Positions 44,619 through 54,077 of a stretch of 64,000 nt of DNA are shown piece by piece. The DNA is taken from the NCBI RefSeq assembly GCF_000209655.1, contig NC_015458.1:3782001-3846000 (forward strand), given 5' to 3'. This DNA comes from Pusillimonas sp. T7-7 (GTDB lineage Bacteria > Pseudomonadota > Gammaproteobacteria > Burkholderiales > Burkholderiaceae_B). The translations under genes and the position numbers were made by a program. Numbering within the stretch: position 1 is the stretch's first letter; each line of letters opens with the position of its first letter. Under the pieces are notes generated by a model, which saw only the letters and a program-made list of their open reading frames with translations, made no database searches and was not told where the DNA came from.

Positions 44619-44645
44619 TTAGCACTCAACCCCTTCGAGTGCTAA
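44619..44645 (-). promoter_or_regulatory. CIRCE operator (HrcA binding site) of groES-groEL
   Basis: A perfect TTAGCACTC-N9-GAGTGCTAA inverted repeat, identical to the CIRCE consensus. It overlaps the last base of the -10 box, so HrcA bound here would block transcription. It lies about 60 bp before the groES start codon. Confidence 0.97.
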
Positions 44646-44699: not shown

Positions 44700-45875
44700 T
44701 CAGCGCCTGCGCTGCCAGAACGGATGCTCAGCCCAGCGTGGTTGGGTACGATAGTAGAAGTCTTTATGCGACAGGTATGTTTGCCAAAGTTGCTGCTGTT
44801 GCGCGGCATACTGATGAATGTGCGCGTTGTGGCTCCCCAGTCCTGCTGTGCCCTCAGGGCAGTCTGTCAATGCGTAGTGGATCATATGCCCGGCGTGGCT
44901 GCCTGTTCTGAGCGCCTTGTCGATGCCTTGCGACGACAGCGGGTCGTAGGCCTGGGCGGCATCGCCCACCGCCATCCAGGCGTCACCGCAGAAGTCCTGC
45001 AGTCGCTGGCTGTTGGCTGGTGCTCCTCGGATTGTTCCGCAAGGGAGGTAACCCCGGGCTTTGAGTAATGGCGCAAGATGCGTCGAGCTATCCAGCAGTT
45101 GATCAAAGCCTGGCCCGGTGGCCGCCATTCTTGCCGCCGGCAGATCTTTGTCGGAGTGCCAAACCACCAATCGCCTGGTTTCATTGTTTTCGGCGCCGGG
45201 CAGGCGGTTGCTATACCACCAGCCGTGCGGCGCGGCCTCAATTCGCGTATAGCGGTCGTCATCGTCACCAGAGCAGGAAAACCATTGCGCATAGGCGAAC
45301 AAACAGTCGTGGCGGGTGATCGGAACACCGAGAGCCTTGGCCACGACCGCCCGCCGACCGGAGCAGTCAACCAGGTAACGTGCGTGATGCTGTTGCGTCT
45401 GTGTGTCCGAGCTTAGCTTTAGTTGCCAATTGAAAGGACCGTCAGCGATACGCATGCATGATTCAAAACGGACGCCTTTGAGCAAGGTGGCCCCGGCGGC
45501 AACTGCGCTGGAGCGCAATGCCTCATCGAAAGCCAACCGTTCCACGCATAGCCCGAAGCCGGTCATCGTGAAGAAAAAGTCGGTGATGTCGGCCTGCTCT
45601 GTTGTCCATAGCGAAACGTTGCCAGCTGTTCTGAAAAGGCCCGGAAGGCTTTGTGCTGGATCTTCAAGGTCTCCCAGGAAGTGCTTGACCAGACCGACAG
45701 AGGTTGGCGGCAGTGATTCGCCCAGCTTGAAGCGCGGTGACGTGCGCTCTTCCAGCAAGAGCACACGCTGGCCGAACTTGGCCAGCGTGATTGCGGTTGC
45801 CGTACCTGCGGGCCCGGCGCCGACAATAACAACGTCCCATGTTGTGTTGGTCCGGCCGTGTCCGGTCAGTGGCAA
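44700..45875 (-). CDS. lodB: LodB-type FAD-dependent flavoprotein (quinone-cofactor maturation)
   Basis: A 391-residue flavoprotein of the tryptophan-halogenase/geranylgeranyl-reductase-like class. The FAD fingerprint is VVIVGAGPAGTATAITLAKFG followed by VLLLEE, and the second FAD block is GDAAQAYDPLSSQGIDKAL. A TTG start is preceded by AAAGGAAAG, and the gene begins 3 bp after the lodA stop. Flavoproteins beside LodA/GoxA oxidases are known to be needed for forming the Cys-Trp quinone cofactor, so the same job is inferred here. By sequence alone a free-standing halogenase or hydroxylase would be possible; the adjacent LodA argues against that. Confidence 0.87.
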   Translation of the reverse strand: MPLTGHGRTNTTWDVVIVGAGPAGTATAITLAKFGQRVLLLEERTSPRFKLGESLPPTSVGLVKHFLGDLEDPAQSLPGLFRTAGNVSLWTTEQADITDFFFTMTGFGLCVERLAFDEALRSSAVAAGATLLKGVRFESCMRIADGPFNWQLKLSSDTQTQQHHARYLVDCSGRRAVVAKALGVPITRHDCLFAYAQWFSCSGDDDDRYTRIEAAPHGWWYSNRLPGAENNETRRLVVWHSDKDLPAARMAATGPGFDQLLDSSTHLAPLLKARGYLPCGTIRGAPANSQRLQDFCGDAWMAVGDAAQAYDPLSSQGIDKALRTGSHAGHMIHYALTDCPEGTAGLGSHNAHIHQYAAQQQQLWQTYLSHKDFYYRTQPRWAEHPFWQRRR

Positions 45876-45878
45876 GAA

Positions 45879-47879
45879 TTACTTTCCTTTGGCAGGCGGC
45901 TGGTTCAGTGCCGGGGATCGCTCTTGTTCGACGAACACGGTCGAGCCCTGGTCTTTCACAAAGCTGCCGTCTTCGGCCTTGAGTGGAAGCACCATACCCA
46001 GTTTCGACCACGCATATTCCATCTGATGGAAACCATCGGTGGACGATAGCGGTTCGCCGTCGGCGTCGTATCCGCGGAACCACTCTTTATAGGTTCTGGT
46101 CTGGGTTTTTGGATCGTACTCGAAGACGATATCTGGCCGTTGTGTTGGCCACCATGCCACGTTACACGACCAGAAGTCGCCCTGCCAGGGGCTGGACATA
46201 TAGGCAGAGATGGCGCCGGGCTCGTTGTCTTTGCCCACGCGAAACGCCTCGGCGAAATACTCTCTATAGAGAATCAAGTAGGGGAATTCTATGCCTGGGT
46301 GGAAGCCGCCGCCGATGGTGGGTTGGAGCGCCGAGCTATCGAGGGCGTGGGGCTGTTCGGCTAATGGCAACTGTTCCAGGGATAAGGGGTCTTGTAGAGC
46401 GCCGACTTCAAAATTTCCATCTGCCCAATTCTTCATATGCTTCAGCTGCCAGTCGGTCAAGCTTAAGAATTGGTCTGGGAAATCGTTGCCCAGTTGCTGA
46501 TTCTGCAAGGGTTTGCCCGCTGTGCCCCACAGCTTGGGCATTTTGGAGCTGTCTTCGGCGCGTTGGAACTCTTCGTTCTTCCAGCTGGTGGGCCGCTGCG
46601 GAGGAGCAGGCAACAATGTGTCGACCAGCCGCCCGTTTTTCCCGGGAGCATGCCGCATCAGGCCATAGATTCTTTGCCTTATCGGCTTGCTTTGTTCGCT
46701 TGGGTCGGCCAGCAACGCCATGTACTGGGGCAGGAGCAAGTTGCCCGGTTGCCCTGGGCCGTGGGCGCGATTCTTGGTTTCGGGCAGTGTGCCCGCCGCC
46801 TCGGCGCTTACCCAGCCGTAATTGACCGCATTGGCAAAAATTGGATAGACGTCGCGATAGAAGTTTGTTTTCTGGTCCGTGTAGGGGTAAGCCTCGGGAA
46901 AGGCTTCGTAGACACGATCCAGAATGGACACTACGTGGTACATGTGGGGTGCAAACTTCGGAGGCGCGGTGACGATCCATGCCCCTGCCCGTGGATTCCT
47001 CGTGCCTTCGTCCGTGGCTGATTTCACGTCGTCGCGTGTGCTTAAGACAGTGCCGTCCTTGAGCGTGACGGTGACATCGATCTCACCGCCGCAGGTATCG
47101 TCCCACCAACCTGGAATGTTGAAGTAGGCGAACTGGTTTGTCAGTGGGTTTTTGCCGTTATCAGGGCCATTAGGCGGGGAGACTGTTTCGCTTGGATTGG
47201 ATAGTTCGACTTTAGGCGTTGTGACGCATTCGCCTTTTCCGGGCGCGGGAACGAACAGCAGACGATCCTTGGAATCCAGGCGCAGCTGGCCCAACTCGAT
47301 GTCTTTGGCGGCTTTATAAGTGACCTCGACTTCTTGCGACAGATCTTTTGGCGTGAAACCTTCAAAACGCAATTCGCCTGGCAATGTGCCTTTTTCAATG
47401 CCGGTGAAAACATCGCCTTTCATGACAATGGGGCCTGCTTGCCCGGATGCGATTGTGTGCACGCCGGGATCGATGATGAGTTTATCGCGTTCGATCGGCT
47501 TCTTGCCGGGCTGGATGGATGGGTTGCGCAACGCGTCCGGGTCAAACAAATATGCGCCCTGAAACGCATAATTGGCCGCTTTCATGTTTCTTACATGAAC
47601 CCGCCAGTTCAGGGATTGAACCAGATCCGAATCTGATGTGAGCTCTGCAATGACCTTGTCGTCGGCATCGTAGGCGTATACCCGATACCGCTGCGCCTGG
47701 CGTTTTAATCGCGCCCCGCTGTCGCGGTAGCTTCCTCCGTTCGGCCCCGGGCCATCGTTGCCGCCCGGGTCGACCACGACCCCCGGCGCTTCAGGTCCAA
47801 TGTAAAACTCGTCGCTGTCTCCCAGGCGGGCAATGCCAATACCAGGATGGACACGAATGCTTTTGATTTGTTCGGACAC
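45879..47879 (-). CDS. lodA: LodA/GoxA-type cysteine-tryptophylquinone amino-acid oxidase
   Basis: A 666-residue protein from a GTG start with GGAAGAG upstream. It opens with IRVHPGIGIARLGDS, the mark of LodA-like quinoproteins. Near the C terminus PWQGDFWSCNVAWWPTQRPD supplies the cofactor Cys (C572) with an Asp four residues before it (D568), the spacing I recall for Marinomonas LodA. W624, in MEYAWSKLGMV, is the likely partner Trp. The family oxidises free amino acids (lysine epsilon-amine or glycine) to aldehyde or keto acid, ammonia and hydrogen peroxide. No signal peptide is present although known members act outside the cytoplasm. The substrate is not predictable from the sequence. Confidence 0.88.
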   Translation of the reverse strand: MSEQIKSIRVHPGIGIARLGDSDEFYIGPEAPGVVVDPGGNDGPGPNGGSYRDSGARLKRQAQRYRVYAYDADDKVIAELTSDSDLVQSLNWRVHVRNMKAANYAFQGAYLFDPDALRNPSIQPGKKPIERDKLIIDPGVHTIASGQAGPIVMKGDVFTGIEKGTLPGELRFEGFTPKDLSQEVEVTYKAAKDIELGQLRLDSKDRLLFVPAPGKGECVTTPKVELSNPSETVSPPNGPDNGKNPLTNQFAYFNIPGWWDDTCGGEIDVTVTLKDGTVLSTRDDVKSATDEGTRNPRAGAWIVTAPPKFAPHMYHVVSILDRVYEAFPEAYPYTDQKTNFYRDVYPIFANAVNYGWVSAEAAGTLPETKNRAHGPGQPGNLLLPQYMALLADPSEQSKPIRQRIYGLMRHAPGKNGRLVDTLLPAPPQRPTSWKNEEFQRAEDSSKMPKLWGTAGKPLQNQQLGNDFPDQFLSLTDWQLKHMKNWADGNFEVGALQDPLSLEQLPLAEQPHALDSSALQPTIGGGFHPGIEFPYLILYREYFAEAFRVGKDNEPGAISAYMSSPWQGDFWSCNVAWWPTQRPDIVFEYDPKTQTRTYKEWFRGYDADGEPLSSTDGFHQMEYAWSKLGMVLPLKAEDGSFVKDQGSTVFVEQERSPALNQPPAKGK

Positions 47880-47909
47880 GATTCTCTTCCTTTTTCAGAA
47901 CCTGGTTGC

Positions 47910-48200
47910 TTAGAGAGTGCTCACGATCTTCCAGTTCAGCAAGTCGGCAGAAGTGACCGCGTACCGGTTGCCAAAATGTTCGATGTCGGCGTAGGTCAGG
48001 CCGTTTGATTGGGTATGAGCGCGTACCGAGAAGCCACCGCCGAAGCCCGCCTTGATCGATTTTTGAATATGTAAATCGGCATTTGAGACCGGTGCGCCGT
48101 TCGTGTTCTTGTCTTGCGCGGCACTGGCAACGCCCGGCAACAGAATACAGGCTGATGCCGCTGCGCAGCCCTTGACGAAATCTCTACGCTTGATGTCCAT
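47910..48200 (-). CDS. Small Tat-exported protein in the LodA operon
   Basis: A 96-residue protein with a twin-arginine signal peptide: K-R-R-D-F-V-K, then a hydrophobic stretch with ACILLPGVASA and a likely cut before AQDK. The mature part is about 68 residues, has no Cys, and ends ADLLNWKIVSTL; a Gly-rich piece (KAGFGGGFSVRAH) is central. I do not recognise the mature domain. AAGGAG precedes the ATG. It is 30 bp upstream of lodA on the same strand, so it is the first gene of the three-gene unit. Possible roles are export partner, assembly factor or subunit of the oxidase. Confidence 0.82.
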   Translation of the reverse strand: MDIKRRDFVKGCAAASACILLPGVASAAQDKNTNGAPVSNADLHIQKSIKAGFGGGFSVRAHTQSNGLTYADIEHFGNRYAVTSADLLNWKIVSTL

Positions 48201-48404: not shown

Positions 48405-48414
48405 ATCGTACGAT
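48405..48414. promoter_or_regulatory. Candidate operator of the PadR regulator
   Basis: The perfect palindrome ATCGTACGAT sits in AT-rich flanks (ATAT left, CTAT right) about 100 bp upstream of the PadR start. PadR regulators, including YqjI, bind palindromes in their own promoter regions. Support is position and symmetry only. Confidence 0.4.
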
Positions 48415-48514
48415 CTATCTTTAGACCGTATTTCTATGAAATCCATGGCTGTCATGGTTATCCTTCTCTATTCTGAAACCGAGGGCAATCTTGAACAATT
48501 CCGAGGGCGGGGCG

Positions 48515-49048
48515 ATGCACCGCCGTGGCGATCGCTTGACGAGCGGACGCAAATTCAATACCGAAGAGCTGCAGCTGATGCTGCTTTGCTTGTTGAATGG
48601 TGTGCCCGCGCATGGCTACGAGCTTATAAAACGCCTGGACGATATCTCGCACGGCTATTACAGCCCAAGTCCTGGTGTGCTGTATCCGGCGCTGGGCCAA
48701 TTGGAGTCCCTTGGTTTCGCGCAGGTGGAACTCAGCGGCAAGCGAAAAACCTACCAAATCACCCCAGCGGGGCAGGACCATTTACAGACGCATGCCGAGC
48801 GTGCACAGCGGCTTCATGCCATATTGCAGCACGCAGCCAAAAAAATGCTGTGGATGAAGCAGGCGGAAGAAAGCGAAGCGGACGCGGCACAGGCTACGGG
48901 TTGGCTGCCGGAATTCGTTGATGCGCGCAAGTCGCTTAAAGCGGCCTTGTTGATGCAAAGCCAGGCTGGCCATGCCGAGCAACGCCGTATTGTTGCCATA
49001 TTGCAGCGTGCGACCCAAAAGATCCTGCAAGCATCCGGCAAGCAATAA
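48515..49048 (+). CDS. PadR-family regulator, YqjI-like
   Basis: A 177-residue PadR winged-helix protein. The core (LQLMLLCLLNGVPAHGYELIKRLDD, YYSPSPGVLYPALGQLESLGF, KRKTYQITPAGQDHL) aligns well with E. coli YqjI, a nickel/iron-responsive repressor of the ferric reductase gene yqjH. The long His/Cys-rich metal-binding N terminus of E. coli YqjI is lacking; only MHRRGDRLTSGRK precedes the helix. The ATG at 48515 has GAGG upstream and is preferred over a TTG at 48491. A siderophore-interacting protein follows 29 bp downstream, matching the yqjI-yqjH pairing. Confidence 0.87.
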   Translation: MHRRGDRLTSGRKFNTEELQLMLLCLLNGVPAHGYELIKRLDDISHGYYSPSPGVLYPALGQLESLGFAQVELSGKRKTYQITPAGQDHLQTHAERAQRLHAILQHAAKKMLWMKQAEESEADAAQATGWLPEFVDARKSLKAALLMQSQAGHAEQRRIVAILQRATQKILQASGKQ

Positions 49049-49077: not shown

Positions 49078-49890
49078 ATGACCACAGACAGTTTGGAAGT
49101 ACAAAAGGTACAGCATCCCATCAAAGTGCGTGCGCTGACGGTAAAGCGCACGGTCGAATTAAGCCCTTCGATGCGGCGTATCACTTTAACGGGCGATGAC
49201 TTAGCGGGGTTTCTCTCGGCTTCGTTTGATGATCACTTGAAGCTGATGGTGCCGGATACGCAAGGGGCCGAGCTCAATATGCCGGTGGCGGGGCCCGCCG
49301 GCCTGGTCTTTGAAGAGGGCAAACCCAAGCCGGCCATGCGCGATTACACGCCGCGCCGCTATGATCCTGCCACCAATGAGCTGGATATCGATTTTGTGTT
49401 GCATCACGCAGGGCCTGCAACAGATTGGGCGGCTCAGGCAGAGCCGGGGCATGTTGCGGGTATTGCCGGGCCGCGTGGTTCTTTTCTTGTTCCCACGGCT
49501 TTTGACTGGCATTTGCTGATTGGCGACGAAACCGCCATACCGGCGATTGCTCGTCGGCTGGAAGAGCTGCCGGCTGCGTCCAAGGCCATTGTGATCATCA
49601 AGATCAAGTCCGATGCCGCCAAGCTTGAGCTGTCCAGTCAGTGCCAGCTTGATGTCCAATGGGTGAACAAAGCCAGCGCCGCTGGCGAGGGCATGGGGGC
49701 GTTTGAATCTGCGGTTCGCAACATCACTTTGCCGGAAGGTGAAGGCTATGCTTGGGCGGCAGGGGAATACAGTGAAATCAAGGCGGTTCGGCAAGCTCTG
49801 ACGGAAGAGCTCGGTATTGACAAAAGCCGTATTCGTGCGGCCAGTTACTGGCGCAAGGCAGCGTCCAATACGCAAAAGCATTTCGATTGA
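49078..49890 (+). CDS. Siderophore-interacting protein, YqjH/ViuB-type ferric-siderophore reductase
   Basis: A 270-residue flavin reductase of the SIP family. The FAD-binding signature is RDYTPRRYDP, DFVLH follows, and the C-terminal nucleotide domain has LLIGDETAIPAIARRLEELP and the late WAAGEYSEIKAVR block. It reduces ferric siderophores in the cytoplasm, releasing ferrous iron. It shares a transcript with the PadR regulator and lies beside the receptor/PiuC genes, which fits a local iron-acquisition group. Confidence 0.92.
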   Translation: MTTDSLEVQKVQHPIKVRALTVKRTVELSPSMRRITLTGDDLAGFLSASFDDHLKLMVPDTQGAELNMPVAGPAGLVFEEGKPKPAMRDYTPRRYDPATNELDIDFVLHHAGPATDWAAQAEPGHVAGIAGPRGSFLVPTAFDWHLLIGDETAIPAIARRLEELPAASKAIVIIKIKSDAAKLELSSQCQLDVQWVNKASAAGEGMGAFESAVRNITLPEGEGYAWAAGEYSEIKAVRQALTEELGIDKSRIRAASYWRKAASNTQKHFD

Positions 49891-49966: not shown

Positions 49967-51052
49967 CTATGCCGCCCACAGAACTGAATGGTCAATGTCG
50001 GCCAATGTTCTGCAGCCGCACTGAACCATGGCCATTTCGAATTCCGTTCTAATAATATGCAAGACATGCGCCACACCCGACGGGCCGTTTACCGCCAGGC
50101 CATGGATGATGGGGCGGCCCAGCATGACGGCTTTGGCGCCCAGCGCCAGTGCCTTCAGCACGTCGGTGCCGCGCCGTATGCCGCCATCGAGCAGCACGGG
50201 CGTGCTGCCGGCAACAGAGATAATCGATGGCAACGCGTTTATGGTTGGCGGCGTCGTGTCCAGCACGCGACCGCCGTGGTTGGAAACAATCAAACCTGCC
50301 GCCCCGGCCAAGATGGCGCGGCTGGCATCATGCGGCGACAGAATGCCTTTGATCAGAACGGGTAGACGCGTTTGTTCAATGGCCCACTCGATGTCGCTCC
50401 AATCGTGCAGGCCGGAAATGTGCGGGCTTTGAAACAGAGACGCTCCGGCGGCAACGGAAAGGCCTTGCGCAGGCATAGGCCGGCCGCACAGGTTGACGGC
50501 CGAGATATGGCTGGGCAGTGCGAAGCCCGCCCGGTGCTCGGCATTGCGGCAGCCATTCAGCGCCGCATCGACGGTAATGACCAAGGCCCGGTAGCCGGCT
50601 GCTTCGGCACGCCGTATCAGGGTCAGGCTGTCGGCTTGATCGGCTTGCAGATAAAGCTGGAACCAAAGAGGTGCGGACGAGGCCTGAGCGATGTGCTCCA
50701 GAGAAAGACTGGACAAGGTACTGACCACCATGCCCGCGCGCATGGCAGAGGCCGCCAGGGCGCTTGCTTGTTCGCCTTCGGGATGAGCTAGCTTCTGATA
50801 GGCGACGGGTGCGATCAGTATGGGGTAGTCCAGCGTGGCGCCAAATAAATCAAGAGCTGTGTTGCCGCCTTGCATGGAGCACAAGTGGCGGGGTGACAGC
50901 TGGATGTCGGCAAACGCTTGCTGGTTGCGGGCAAAAGTGTACTGGTCCGCCGCACCGCTTTGCACATATGCCCATGTTTCGGGGCTTAAGATCTGCTTGG
51001 CCAGCGCCTCGTAATCGGCCAGGCAAGTAGGGGGTGCGGCATCCTTGGTCAT
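49967..51052 (-). CDS. FMN-dependent alpha-hydroxyacid oxidase
   Basis: A 361-residue member of the (S)-2-hydroxyacid oxidase family. It has YPILIAPVAYQKLAHPEGE, the active-site Lys of PVLIKGI (K235) and SNHGGR with the catalytic His (H259), followed by LLDGGIRRGTDVLKALALGA and GRP. The sequence is closer to lactate-2-monooxygenase/hydroxyacid-oxidase forms than the protein encoded at 8594-9784. It is 34 bp downstream of piuC on the same strand, so it may be co-expressed under low iron, when an iron-free flavin enzyme would be useful. Substrate unknown. Confidence 0.9.
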   Translation of the reverse strand: MTKDAAPPTCLADYEALAKQILSPETWAYVQSGAADQYTFARNQQAFADIQLSPRHLCSMQGGNTALDLFGATLDYPILIAPVAYQKLAHPEGEQASALAASAMRAGMVVSTLSSLSLEHIAQASSAPLWFQLYLQADQADSLTLIRRAEAAGYRALVITVDAALNGCRNAEHRAGFALPSHISAVNLCGRPMPAQGLSVAAGASLFQSPHISGLHDWSDIEWAIEQTRLPVLIKGILSPHDASRAILAGAAGLIVSNHGGRVLDTTPPTINALPSIISVAGSTPVLLDGGIRRGTDVLKALALGAKAVMLGRPIIHGLAVNGPSGVAHVLHIIRTEFEMAMVQCGCRTLADIDHSVLWAA

Positions 51053-51086
51053 GGCATTCTTTATGTGTGATTGATGACAGAGGGCG

Positions 51087-51767
51087 TCAGGTGTTGGCCC
51101 AGCGGCGTACCAGGTTGTGATACACGCCAGACAAACGGATGATCTCGCTTGCGTCTGCGTTCTTTGCTGTCAGGGCCTGTATGGAGCCGTCAAGCTCATA
51201 TAGCAAGGCTCTTTGGGCGTCGTCCCTGACCATGCTTTGCACCCAGAAGAAGGCCGCATAACGGACGCCTTTGGAAACGGGGTTGACCCTGTGCAGGCTG
51301 GTGCCCGGGTAGACAACGATGTGGCCGGCGGGCAGCTTGACTGATCGCGGCCCATAGGTGTCGTTGATGACCAGCTCACCCCCCTCGTAATCTTCTGGGT
51401 CAGACAGAAAGACGGTGGCGGAAATATCGGTACGCACGTATTCCTGTGTGGTGGGAATCGTGCGGATGGCGTTGTCGATATGGTCGCCGTAGGTTTCGTT
51501 CTGGGCGTAGCGATTCAGCATGGGCGGCAAGATGCGCAAAGGCAGGGTTGCCGATATAAAAGTCGGGTGCTGTGACAGCTGCGACAGAACCAGGTCGCCA
51601 ATTTGCTGGGCCAGCGGGTCGGCGGCATCGAGCTGGGCATTCCGTTTTTGCAGTACGGCCAGGTGGCCCGCCGTTCCCTTGCCGTCTTTCCAGTTTGCTT
51701 TTTCAAGGCGCTCGACGATCTGCCTGGCGGCCTCTGTCGAGATGATGTCTGGAATGCTCAGCAACAT
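51087..51767 (-). CDS. piuC: PiuC-type Fe(II)/2-oxoglutarate-dependent hydroxylase
   Basis: A 226-residue PKHD-type dioxygenase. It has FLPLRILPPMLNRY-like core strands, the iron motif H-x-D (H96, D98 in YGDHIDNA), the distal His (H159 in GTSLHRVNPV) and the 2-oxoglutarate Arg (R169). Such genes almost always neighbour catecholate-siderophore receptors of the Fiu/PiuA type, as here. Its real substrate is not established. A strong terminator (51812-51838) separates it from the receptor gene, so it may have its own promoter or rely on read-through. Confidence 0.94.
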   Translation of the reverse strand: MLLSIPDIISTEAARQIVERLEKANWKDGKGTAGHLAVLQKRNAQLDAADPLAQQIGDLVLSQLSQHPTFISATLPLRILPPMLNRYAQNETYGDHIDNAIRTIPTTQEYVRTDISATVFLSDPEDYEGGELVINDTYGPRSVKLPAGHIVVYPGTSLHRVNPVSKGVRYAAFFWVQSMVRDDAQRALLYELDGSIQALTAKNADASEIIRLSGVYHNLVRRWANT

Positions 51768-51811
51768 GCTTGCCGCTCCTTATATGGGGTTAACAGGCTT
51801 TGAACGCACAT

Positions 51812-51838
51812 AAAAAAGGCGAGCGGTTATCGCTCGCC
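51812..51838 (-). terminator. Intrinsic terminator after the Fiu/PiuA-like receptor gene
   Basis: On the minus strand a perfect 8 bp stem GGCGAGCG/CGCTCGCC with loop ATAAC is followed by TTTTTT. It lies 20 bp past the receptor stop and 45 bp before the piuC start. Confidence 0.9.
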
Positions 51839-51857
51839 GCTACGTCATTATCGCGTA

Positions 51858-54077
51858 TTAGTCGTAACGGTAGGTAGCCGTCAGCATGTAAGAGCGCCCG
51901 GCGCCCACGTTGGCGAAAATTCCTACGTGCGAAGCGTCGTACAACTCGGTGTCGGAGATGTTGTTGACGTTCAACTGCAGTGCGAACTGTTTGTTGATGT
52001 CGTAACGCGCCATGGCATCGTAGCGTACATGGGACGGCAGGGTCATGGTGTTGGCGTCGTCAACATAGCGCTCGCCCAGGTAGGAAACACCACCGCCCAC
52101 GGTAAACTGCGGGTGGACTTTGTAGGTGGTCCATAGCGTGGCGCTTTGCTTGGCAATGAACTTCATCTGATTGCCATCGTAGTTGTTTCGCCCGTTCTGG
52201 TATTCAAGCGTTTTGGGATCAAGATAGGTATAGCCTGCCCAGATGTCCCATTGCGGGGTAATGGAGCCTGTCAGGCCCAGTTCTATGCCTCGCACCCGGT
52301 TGTTCCCGGCCAGCGTCACGTCTCCGGTAAGGGGGTCGGTGGTGCGTGCATCGGTTTTCTTGGTCTCGAACAAGGCGGCGGTGAACGACAGGCGGTCATT
52401 CAGGAAGTCCCACTTGGTGCCCAGTTCCCAACTTCGGCTTTTTTCAGGTTCCAGGTCGCGCACCGCCGCGCCGCTGGCTGCGCCGTCCGCACCCCCGGCC
52501 TGGCCCAGGTTTTCACCGCTAGGGTTGGACGATGTTGCGTACGACAGATAAATGCTGCCGTTGGGCGCCGGCTTGTAGACCAAGCCCAATTGATAGTTCA
52601 GAAAGTTGTCTTTGCGTGAGTCTTCGGTGTCGTCGACTTTGAAGCTGTCGTAGCGCAAGCCCAGATTGACCGAGAATTGTTCGTTCAAGTCTATGGTGTC
52701 GAGCGCGTAGATGGAGGATGTTTTGATATTGCCCGCGCTTTCCTTGGGGCCGCGCGTAATGTTGTAGTTGTAGTATCGGCCAGGATTCGGGTTGTACAGG
52801 CTATCTCTATCGCTGCCGGGCAGACCCGACATGGATTTCGAATAGATGTCTTCCTTGCTGAACTCGATGCCCGCTGCAAAGTTATGTTTGAGCGTACCGG
52901 TGTTGAAACTGCCGAACAGATCGGTTTGATTGATCAGGGTTTCAGAGCTGCGCCAGCGCGCACGATCGCTGCGGGTGAACTGTACGCCGGGCCCTTCGGT
53001 GCTGCAAGGTGCGCCGTCACCTGCATCGCAGTTATCGAATGATGGGCGGGTCATCAGGTAGTGATTGAGCGTTTTGCCGTAGCGGGTGGTATTGCGCACG
53101 GTAACGTTGCTGCTGATGTCGTGTTCCAGTTGCGCGGTGGCCATGTCGAAGACGTTTTCCCGGAAATCCACGTTGTGGCGGCCATAGAAATTGTCGCGGT
53201 CGACATTGGGTGGCGTTGTGCGGCCGGGGTTGGCATCGTTTTTGAAAGGTATGCCCAGGTCGGGCATGTCGTTATTTTCGATATGCGAGTAGCTCAGTGT
53301 GACCCGCGTTGGCGTGCCCAGCCCAAATGCTATTGAAGGCGCAATACCCCAGCGATCTACGGTAACGCCGTCTCGGCCAGGTACGTCGCCACCCATTTTC
53401 ATCATGTTCAGGCGGAAGGCGCCCGTATCGGAAAAGGCGATGTTGCCGTCGGCGGTGGTGCGCCATTGATCCGCGTTGCCGTAACCGGCCGATACCTCGA
53501 AGAAGTCGTCGGGTTTTGGAGTTTTGGTTTGCAGGTTGATGCTGCCGCCGGTGCCGCCACGGCCGGTATAGGCCGAGCTGGGGCCCTTGATGACTTCGAT
53601 GGATTCCAGGTTGAAGGTTTCGTGGGAGCCGCGGCTATAGTCGCGCAGGCCATCAACGAAGATGTCGGTACTGGCTTCGTAGCCACGAATGAACGGACGG
53701 TCCCCCACTGGCGTGCCGCCTTCGCCCGAGCCCAGGGTAACGCCCGGCGTGGTCCTCAGGACGTCTTGCAGCGAAGTTGCGCCACGGTCCTCAATGAGTT
53801 GTTCCGAAATGACGTTGATCGTGCGGGGTGTGTCCAGCAGGGGAGCTGTAAATTTGGGAGAGCTGATGACGTCGGGAGTTTTATAGTCGCTGGCCTGGCC
53901 CTGAACCGTCACCGGGTCCAGTGTGGTCGCGGTATTCTGCGCGAAAGCGGGGTTGATGGCCAAGGCTCCGCCCATCACCGCTGATGCAAACATGGACTTG
54001 CGAAATGCGCCTTCGAAGGACTCTTTTGGAATCAGGCAATTGGATTCCCGATGGTCTGGCACCGTTCCTGCTGACAT
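51858..54077 (-). CDS. TonB-dependent catecholate-siderophore receptor, Fiu/PiuA-like
   Basis: A 739-residue outer-membrane receptor. A hydrophilic leader of about 27 residues precedes a signal core (MFASAVMGGALAINPAFAQ), so the true start may be the Met at residue 29. The plug follows (LDTPRTINVISEQLIEDRGATSL, DRPFIRGYEASTDIFVDG, IEVIKGPSSAYTGRGGTGG), then a 22-strand barrel ending in TATYRYD. The plug pattern and the piuC neighbour place it with Fiu/PiuA, which take up iron bound to catecholate monomers. A divergent two-component system suggests substrate-dependent control in addition to Fur. Confidence 0.92.
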   Translation of the reverse strand: MSAGTVPDHRESNCLIPKESFEGAFRKSMFASAVMGGALAINPAFAQNTATTLDPVTVQGQASDYKTPDVISSPKFTAPLLDTPRTINVISEQLIEDRGATSLQDVLRTTPGVTLGSGEGGTPVGDRPFIRGYEASTDIFVDGLRDYSRGSHETFNLESIEVIKGPSSAYTGRGGTGGSINLQTKTPKPDDFFEVSAGYGNADQWRTTADGNIAFSDTGAFRLNMMKMGGDVPGRDGVTVDRWGIAPSIAFGLGTPTRVTLSYSHIENNDMPDLGIPFKNDANPGRTTPPNVDRDNFYGRHNVDFRENVFDMATAQLEHDISSNVTVRNTTRYGKTLNHYLMTRPSFDNCDAGDGAPCSTEGPGVQFTRSDRARWRSSETLINQTDLFGSFNTGTLKHNFAAGIEFSKEDIYSKSMSGLPGSDRDSLYNPNPGRYYNYNITRGPKESAGNIKTSSIYALDTIDLNEQFSVNLGLRYDSFKVDDTEDSRKDNFLNYQLGLVYKPAPNGSIYLSYATSSNPSGENLGQAGGADGAASGAAVRDLEPEKSRSWELGTKWDFLNDRLSFTAALFETKKTDARTTDPLTGDVTLAGNNRVRGIELGLTGSITPQWDIWAGYTYLDPKTLEYQNGRNNYDGNQMKFIAKQSATLWTTYKVHPQFTVGGGVSYLGERYVDDANTMTLPSHVRYDAMARYDINKQFALQLNVNNISDTELYDASHVGIFANVGAGRSYMLTATYRYD

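Follow-up and report, generated by a model that had tools for sequence, protein, structure and literature searches.

Export of a redox enzyme on a signal borne by a small partner protein has been reported for the Streptomyces tyrosinase MelC2, which is secreted by hitchhiking on its helper MelC1, the carrier of a twin-arginine translocation (Tat) signal (PMC2758597), and for the flavin adenine dinucleotide (FAD)-dependent glucose dehydrogenase (FAD-GDH), whose small γ subunit has a twin-arginine (RR) signal and is needed for secretion of the catalytic α subunit (PMC6719666). Among the LodA/GoxA-type cysteine tryptophylquinone (CTQ) oxidases, the twin-arginine motif is described on the enzyme itself in all but three members of the GoxA group (PMC4417212; also PMC3948610), and GoxA, with a predicted Tat signal, was found in the culture supernatant (PMC3948610). 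Here we report on a three-gene cassette of Pusillimonas sp. T7-7 (contig NC_015458.1; the whole stretch of 64,000 nucleotides that was analysed, positions 3,782,001 to 3,846,000, is referred to as the window), in which a small gene encoding a Tat-type signal precedes genes for a LodA-like oxidase and a LodB-like flavoprotein. As judged from the sequences, the best explanation is probably that the small protein provides its Tat signal in trans, as a hitchhiker escort, to the leaderless CTQ oxidase. The type of mechanism is already known; neither the small-protein family nor its pairing with a tryptophylquinone oxidase was found described in the titles and abstract openings searched, and in the accessible part of the published LodA survey we saw no upstream gene with a Tat signal mentioned (PMC4417212).

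The three genes lie head to tail on the minus strand, separated by gaps of 30 and 3 bp: the small gene of the proposed escort (48200-47910, 96 amino acids, ATG start, beginning MDIKRRDFVKGCAAASACILLPGVASAAQ), the lodA-like gene (47879-45879, 666 amino acids, GTG start) and the lodB-like gene (45875-44700, 391 amino acids, TTG start). The small gene and lodA share one reading frame, with the TAA and one more in-frame TGA between them (gap at 47880..47909, minus strand), and purine-rich ribosome-binding sites, identified by eye, precede all three starts (AAGGAGCGATGAAAA-ATG, AAAAAGGAAGAGAATC-GTG and CAAAGGAAAGTAATTC-TTG). The tight cassette described in an earlier note on this DNA, with its starts, gaps and ribosome-binding sites, is thus confirmed by the open reading frame calls. 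By eye, both the LodA-like and the LodB-like protein are devoid of a signal peptide. The small protein begins with the twin-arginine signal MDIKRRDFVKGCAAASACILLPGVASA, ending in an ASA cleavage-like site (48120..48200, minus strand); the signal exceeds the cut-off of NCBIfam model TIGR01409 (19.8 bits vs 16.7) and falls below that of Pfam PF10518 (16.1 bits vs 22.7). TatC is encoded in the genome, and an RR signal, a hydrophobic stretch and a cleavage-like site, along with a Tat translocase in the genome, make the small protein a putative Tat substrate.

The distribution of the small gene was surveyed by searching Pfam LodA_N in five slightly overlapping genome draws (GTDB family, 268 genomes; class, 369; phylum, 398; order of genome G975, 390; family of genome G754, 391), which contributed 28, 8, 9, 14 and 62 new loci, respectively, to the 121 LodA loci examined. 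The window's small protein alone finds a homologue just upstream of lodA in 19 of the 28 family-draw loci, and a hidden Markov model (HMM) built from these 19 and 120 database homologues matches 20 loci in the first four draws and 4 in the fifth. Within the LodA clade to which the window belongs, the small gene adjoins lodA in 24 of 24 loci; the order of the cassette, being kept in all of them, is not due to chance. Beside LodA outside the clade it was found in 0 of 97 loci, the later of which were checked with the HMM alone, while upstream RR-motif genes of any family were sought in 45 loci (4 of them unscored, having no LodA motif), where the matches beside the non-clade loci L016, L018 and L042 looked spurious by eye. 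This association supports an in-trans Tat escort, short of demonstrating it. The possibility raised in the earlier note, that the small gene is missing from most lodA neighbourhoods of the same group, was examined here and does not hold, and a role of the small protein as a general LodA partner is rejected.

The 30 rows with a small gene fall into one clade on a long branch (Shimodaira-Hasegawa-like approximate likelihood ratio test, SH-aLRT, 100) in a quick tree that comprises 54 LodA rows; the tree carries long-branch warnings, and the place of the clade among the other LodA groups is unsure. In the fifth draw, the four LodAs with a small gene score >1200 bits to the window's LodA and the rest <=177. 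L080, the clade member furthest from the window's genes, still has both of them, with identities of 59% for LodA and 32% for the mature small protein; its small gene was found at 8e-13 by an HMM that did not contain it, and genome G021 has two copies of the cassette (L023, L037), each with its small gene. Omitted from the counts are two loci whose contig ends right after the small gene (L048, L065) and two below the cut-off (L046, 24 bits; G1580, 22.1 bits); incomplete loci, i.e. fragments such as L013, L132, L159 and L160, are kept among the 121. An extra small-protein match in L008 (E 6.9e-4, residues 2-41 within a 388-amino-acid frame) is a signal-only match.

The reverse question, whether homologues of the small protein always sit beside lodA, was addressed by a pattern scan of contigs with the small-protein alignment, which may overlook distant members. 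Of 25 loci thus found, 2 end at a contig edge and 23 have lodA and lodB directly behind the small gene, so that the pairing is seen in every readable case apart from two truncated copies on a plasmid, to which we return below. The LodA of genome G001, of the same genus as the window, agrees completely with that of Pollutimonas harenae beyond residue 20, and the genus is therefore probably Pollutimonas. Since 13 of the 23 LodAs recur in the first draw with the same sequence from residue 21 onward, and L128, one of the four clade loci of the fifth draw, differs from earlier ones, the distinct cassettes number 31 (19, L080, 10 named loci and L128), with L129, L130 and L131 of the fifth draw treated as repeats of named loci and not added. 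Hosts of the named cassettes are alpha-, beta- and gammaproteobacteria. Beyond the three cassette genes, any one neighbour is common to at most 4 of 26 loci, within flanks that reach no more than 5 kb on the upstream side and ~1.6 kb past lodB on the downstream side, and a larger operon with further conserved neighbours is rejected within the same flanks.

When both kinds of signal are considered together, 41 of the 121 loci have a Tat-type signal in cis on the enzyme and 24 the small gene; neither is seen in 56, and no locus combines the two; all 41 cis-signal loci fall outside the window's clade. The script flagged 42 loci, of which L083 was dropped by eye as having no signal, and a separate count by eye likewise gave 41; in L018 the motif is KR, not RR. 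Judged by Cys-Trp spacing and N-terminal sequence, cis signals occur in more than one lineage, and the six cis-signal LodAs present in the quick tree form one clade. That a cis signal is seen in 41 of the loci, and in none of those with the small gene, suggests that export by Tat is widespread in related LodA-like enzymes. The premise that LodA and GoxA enzymes lack signals of their own is accordingly only half right: GoxA and all but three members of its group, as well as these 41 loci, have a signal on the enzyme. GoxA and the group II LodA-like proteins resemble the present system in belonging to the same superfamily, in having a LodB-like partner and in using a Tat signal, as far as described (PMC3948610, PMC4417212); their signal, however, is located on the enzyme itself and not on a separate protein, and the window's LodA is just 36-38% identical to L018 and L014, the cis-signal LodAs used for comparison, and falls below the GoxA equivalog cut-off. 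A third small gene, encoding 138-142 amino acids, also occurs in the lod operons of group ID, but there it is larger, lies between lodA and lodB and, in a comparison by description only, comes without mention of a Tat signal in the part of the survey available (PMC4417212).

Membership of the enzyme in the LodA family is indicated by both Pfam domains, which exceed their gathering scores (LodA_N, 139.3 bits, cut-off 26.3; LodA_C, 89.4 bits, cut-off 25), and the matches in the PDB include LodA (2ymw) and GoxA. The protein falls below the NCBIfam equivalog cut-offs (NF038172, 107.3 of 600 bits; NF038173, 199.6 of 750 bits), so that its substrate cannot be transferred from LodA or GoxA. The flavoprotein, a putative LodB/GoxB-like FAD maturase, scores 204 bits with the NCBIfam LodB model and 187.7 bits with the GoxB model, both under the equivalog cut-off of 400, and is LodB-like rather than LodB proper. 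In the phmmer alignment to 2ymw, the WWP motif of LodA falls on W576-W577, and LodA W581 thus corresponds to W577; C572 and W577 align with C516 and W581 of LodA (numbering from PMC4417212). All but one of 55 aligned LodA rows have W577, the exception (L013) being a fragment, and column 624 is Phe in 8 of the rows. Of the cofactor residues proposed before, C572 and D568 are indeed in the stated places, while W624 must be rejected as the CTQ tryptophan in favour of W577. The spacing of C572 and W577 is 5 residues throughout the clade (residues 568-577, window 46149-46178), compared with 9-37 in most LodA rows outside it that have both residues and 5 in a few; among the non-clade rows of the first alignment alone the range is 9-35, with L044, at 5, as the exception. 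Residues 568-577 also give a weak, below-cut-off match to the quinohemoprotein amine dehydrogenase gamma model (E 0.026). By sequence, the LodA-like enzyme is predicted to be a CTQ oxidase of this family.

The small protein consists of the RR signal (residues 1 to ~27), a linker and a conserved domain of one helix and four strands (~residues 40-95). AlphaFold2 models the helix at residues 40-53 and the four strands with block means of the predicted local distance difference test (pLDDT) of 89-95 from residue 41 onward, and with low pLDDT over signal and linker; among the structural relatives listed, none is clear. An alignment (A1) of 18 of the 19 family sequences, from which L026 was omitted, has 18 invariant columns, 14 of them within the mature domain (K47, S48, I49, A51, F53, G54, G55, F57, A71, I73, Y80, V82, S84 and W90). 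The idea that the small reading frame is an artefact is rejected, given these 14 residues and its recognisability in L080. For the mature part no Pfam match was obtained, the TAT_signal model being the sole match of the protein at E <= 1, and hence none to PF06236 or PF13618, which we take to be the MelC1 and the gluconate/FAD-GDH gamma families, respectively. As in MelC1-MelC2, a small Tat-signal gene directly precedes the gene of a leaderless oxidase; MelC2, however, is a copper enzyme and not a CTQ oxidase, and the small protein has no Pfam family beyond its Tat signal. By analogy, the small protein may thus work like MelC1, although membership of the MelC1 family is not supported by Pfam. 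The γ subunit of FAD-GDH is likewise a small RR-signal protein serving a redox enzyme, but it has five helices (PMC6719666), and its partners are a flavoenzyme and a heme c protein.

On the basis of alignment A1, conservation of the mature domain exceeds what a bare signal carrier would appear to need, which counts in favour of the escort but could also indicate that the main role of the small protein is that of a folding or maturation chaperone, or of an active-site cap, for quinone formation or cytoplasmic silence, with the Tat signal as a secondary exit route; MelC1 itself is required for copper loading and activation besides secretion (PMC2758597). We consider this unlikely, because the small gene was not found beside any of the 97 LodA loci outside the clade, so that the small protein is not a general requirement for CTQ formation in the family, and because the RR pair is kept in all 19 family homologues and in 119 of the 120 listed of the 342 database homologues found, on which 120 our counts rest.

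The Tat pathway is the one that exports folded proteins. In another CTQ enzyme, the flavoprotein QhpG works in the cytoplasm (PMC7876137), and because the LodB-like protein is likewise leaderless, LodA should be folded and modified prior to export. The cassette would be a self-contained unit for an exported CTQ oxidase. We infer that LodA, made without a signal, would fold in the cytoplasm, where the LodB-like flavoprotein would help to form the Cys572-Trp577 quinone; that the helix-and-four-strand domain of the small protein would then bind folded LodA and offer its own twin-arginine signal; and that, after maturation, the two would cross the Tat translocase as a pair. The signal would subsequently be cut off at the ASA site, and, once outside the cytoplasm, LodA would act as the oxidase of an amine or an amino acid, with ammonia and hydrogen peroxide as products. 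A small, apparently cofactor-free domain with a retained Tat signal, encoded next to a single leaderless enzyme wherever an intact locus was read, resembles a hitchhiker escort.

Several observations weigh against such an escort. The 56 loci with neither kind of signal imply that a leaderless LodA alone does not require one; one listed homologue (P0111) has RG in place of RR; no natural fusion of the small protein and LodA was found among 17 candidates at E <= 10; and a single-chain read-through model of the two failed (pLDDT 39.9, predicted template modelling score 0.36). Moreover, two truncated small genes are located on Nitrobacter hamburgensis plasmid NC_007959.1 (L096, L097, L098), on which, with the plasmid alone searched, there is no LodA match. 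Annotated transposase genes lie near one of them, and these truncated genes are probably remnants of decayed cassettes; two LodA genes of this Nitrobacter hamburgensis strain appear in the published survey (PMC4417212). The 56 loci also suggest that another route or site may exist for some family members, and the small protein might then be exported alone, as a periplasmic subunit, inhibitor or protective partner, with LodA being cytoplasmic or leaving otherwise. This appears quite improbable in view of the strict operon pairing in all readable loci and the mutual exclusion with cis signals, and since an apparently cofactor-free domain of ~60 residues has no evident need of Tat unless it carries a folded partner. 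That the signal stays uncleaved and tethers LodA to the inner membrane, as is generally known for some Tat substrates, has nothing specific in its favour and is very improbable given a small-or-aliphatic-x-Ala site in the expected stretch of 18 of 19 family and 117 of 120 listed homologues, a loose pattern counted without a chance control. The escort idea of the earlier note is thus partly supported: the predicted association of the small gene with LodA stands, in one clade and not in general, and the universal lack of LodA signals does not.

Around the cassette, an inverted repeat TTAGCACTC-N9-GAGTGCTAA at 44619-44645, CIRCE-like (controlling inverted repeat of chaperone expression), stands ahead of an apparent groES-groEL pair (44577-42595, minus strand, by eye), and the cassette hence sits just upstream of a chaperonin operon apparently controlled by HrcA. 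Divergent from the cassette, on the plus strand, lie genes for a PadR-like regulator (48491-49048) and a siderophore-interacting-type protein (49078-49890), assigned by eye, a pair that looks like YqjI-YqjH; a palindromic ATCGTACGAT is located at 48405-48414, between the cassette and the PadR-like gene. Further along, at 49967-54077, translations inspected by eye resemble a flavin mononucleotide (FMN) hydroxy-acid dehydrogenase, a PiuC-like oxygenase and a TonB siderophore receptor, and this region looks like an iron-uptake neighbourhood.

It is possible, though doubtful, that the small proteins are a new family of Tat escorts that also acts as a checkpoint, by binding only quinone-complete LodA, silencing the enzyme in the cytoplasm and thus coupling cofactor biogenesis to export; if so, LodA would be, as far as the literature searched shows, the first tryptophylquinone enzyme to be given its Tat signal in trans. 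With the escort proposed here, an uncharacterised branch of CTQ oxidases would gain a testable export route, and the known Tat hitchhiker pairs would gain a small protein family that has no Pfam model. One enzyme superfamily would then use a single Tat address in two ways, carried by the enzyme itself or by a partner protein, and a portable escort of ~60 residues for a folded, cofactor-bearing enzyme of 666 residues may turn out to be a compact model of how Tat proofreads cofactor-bearing cargo.

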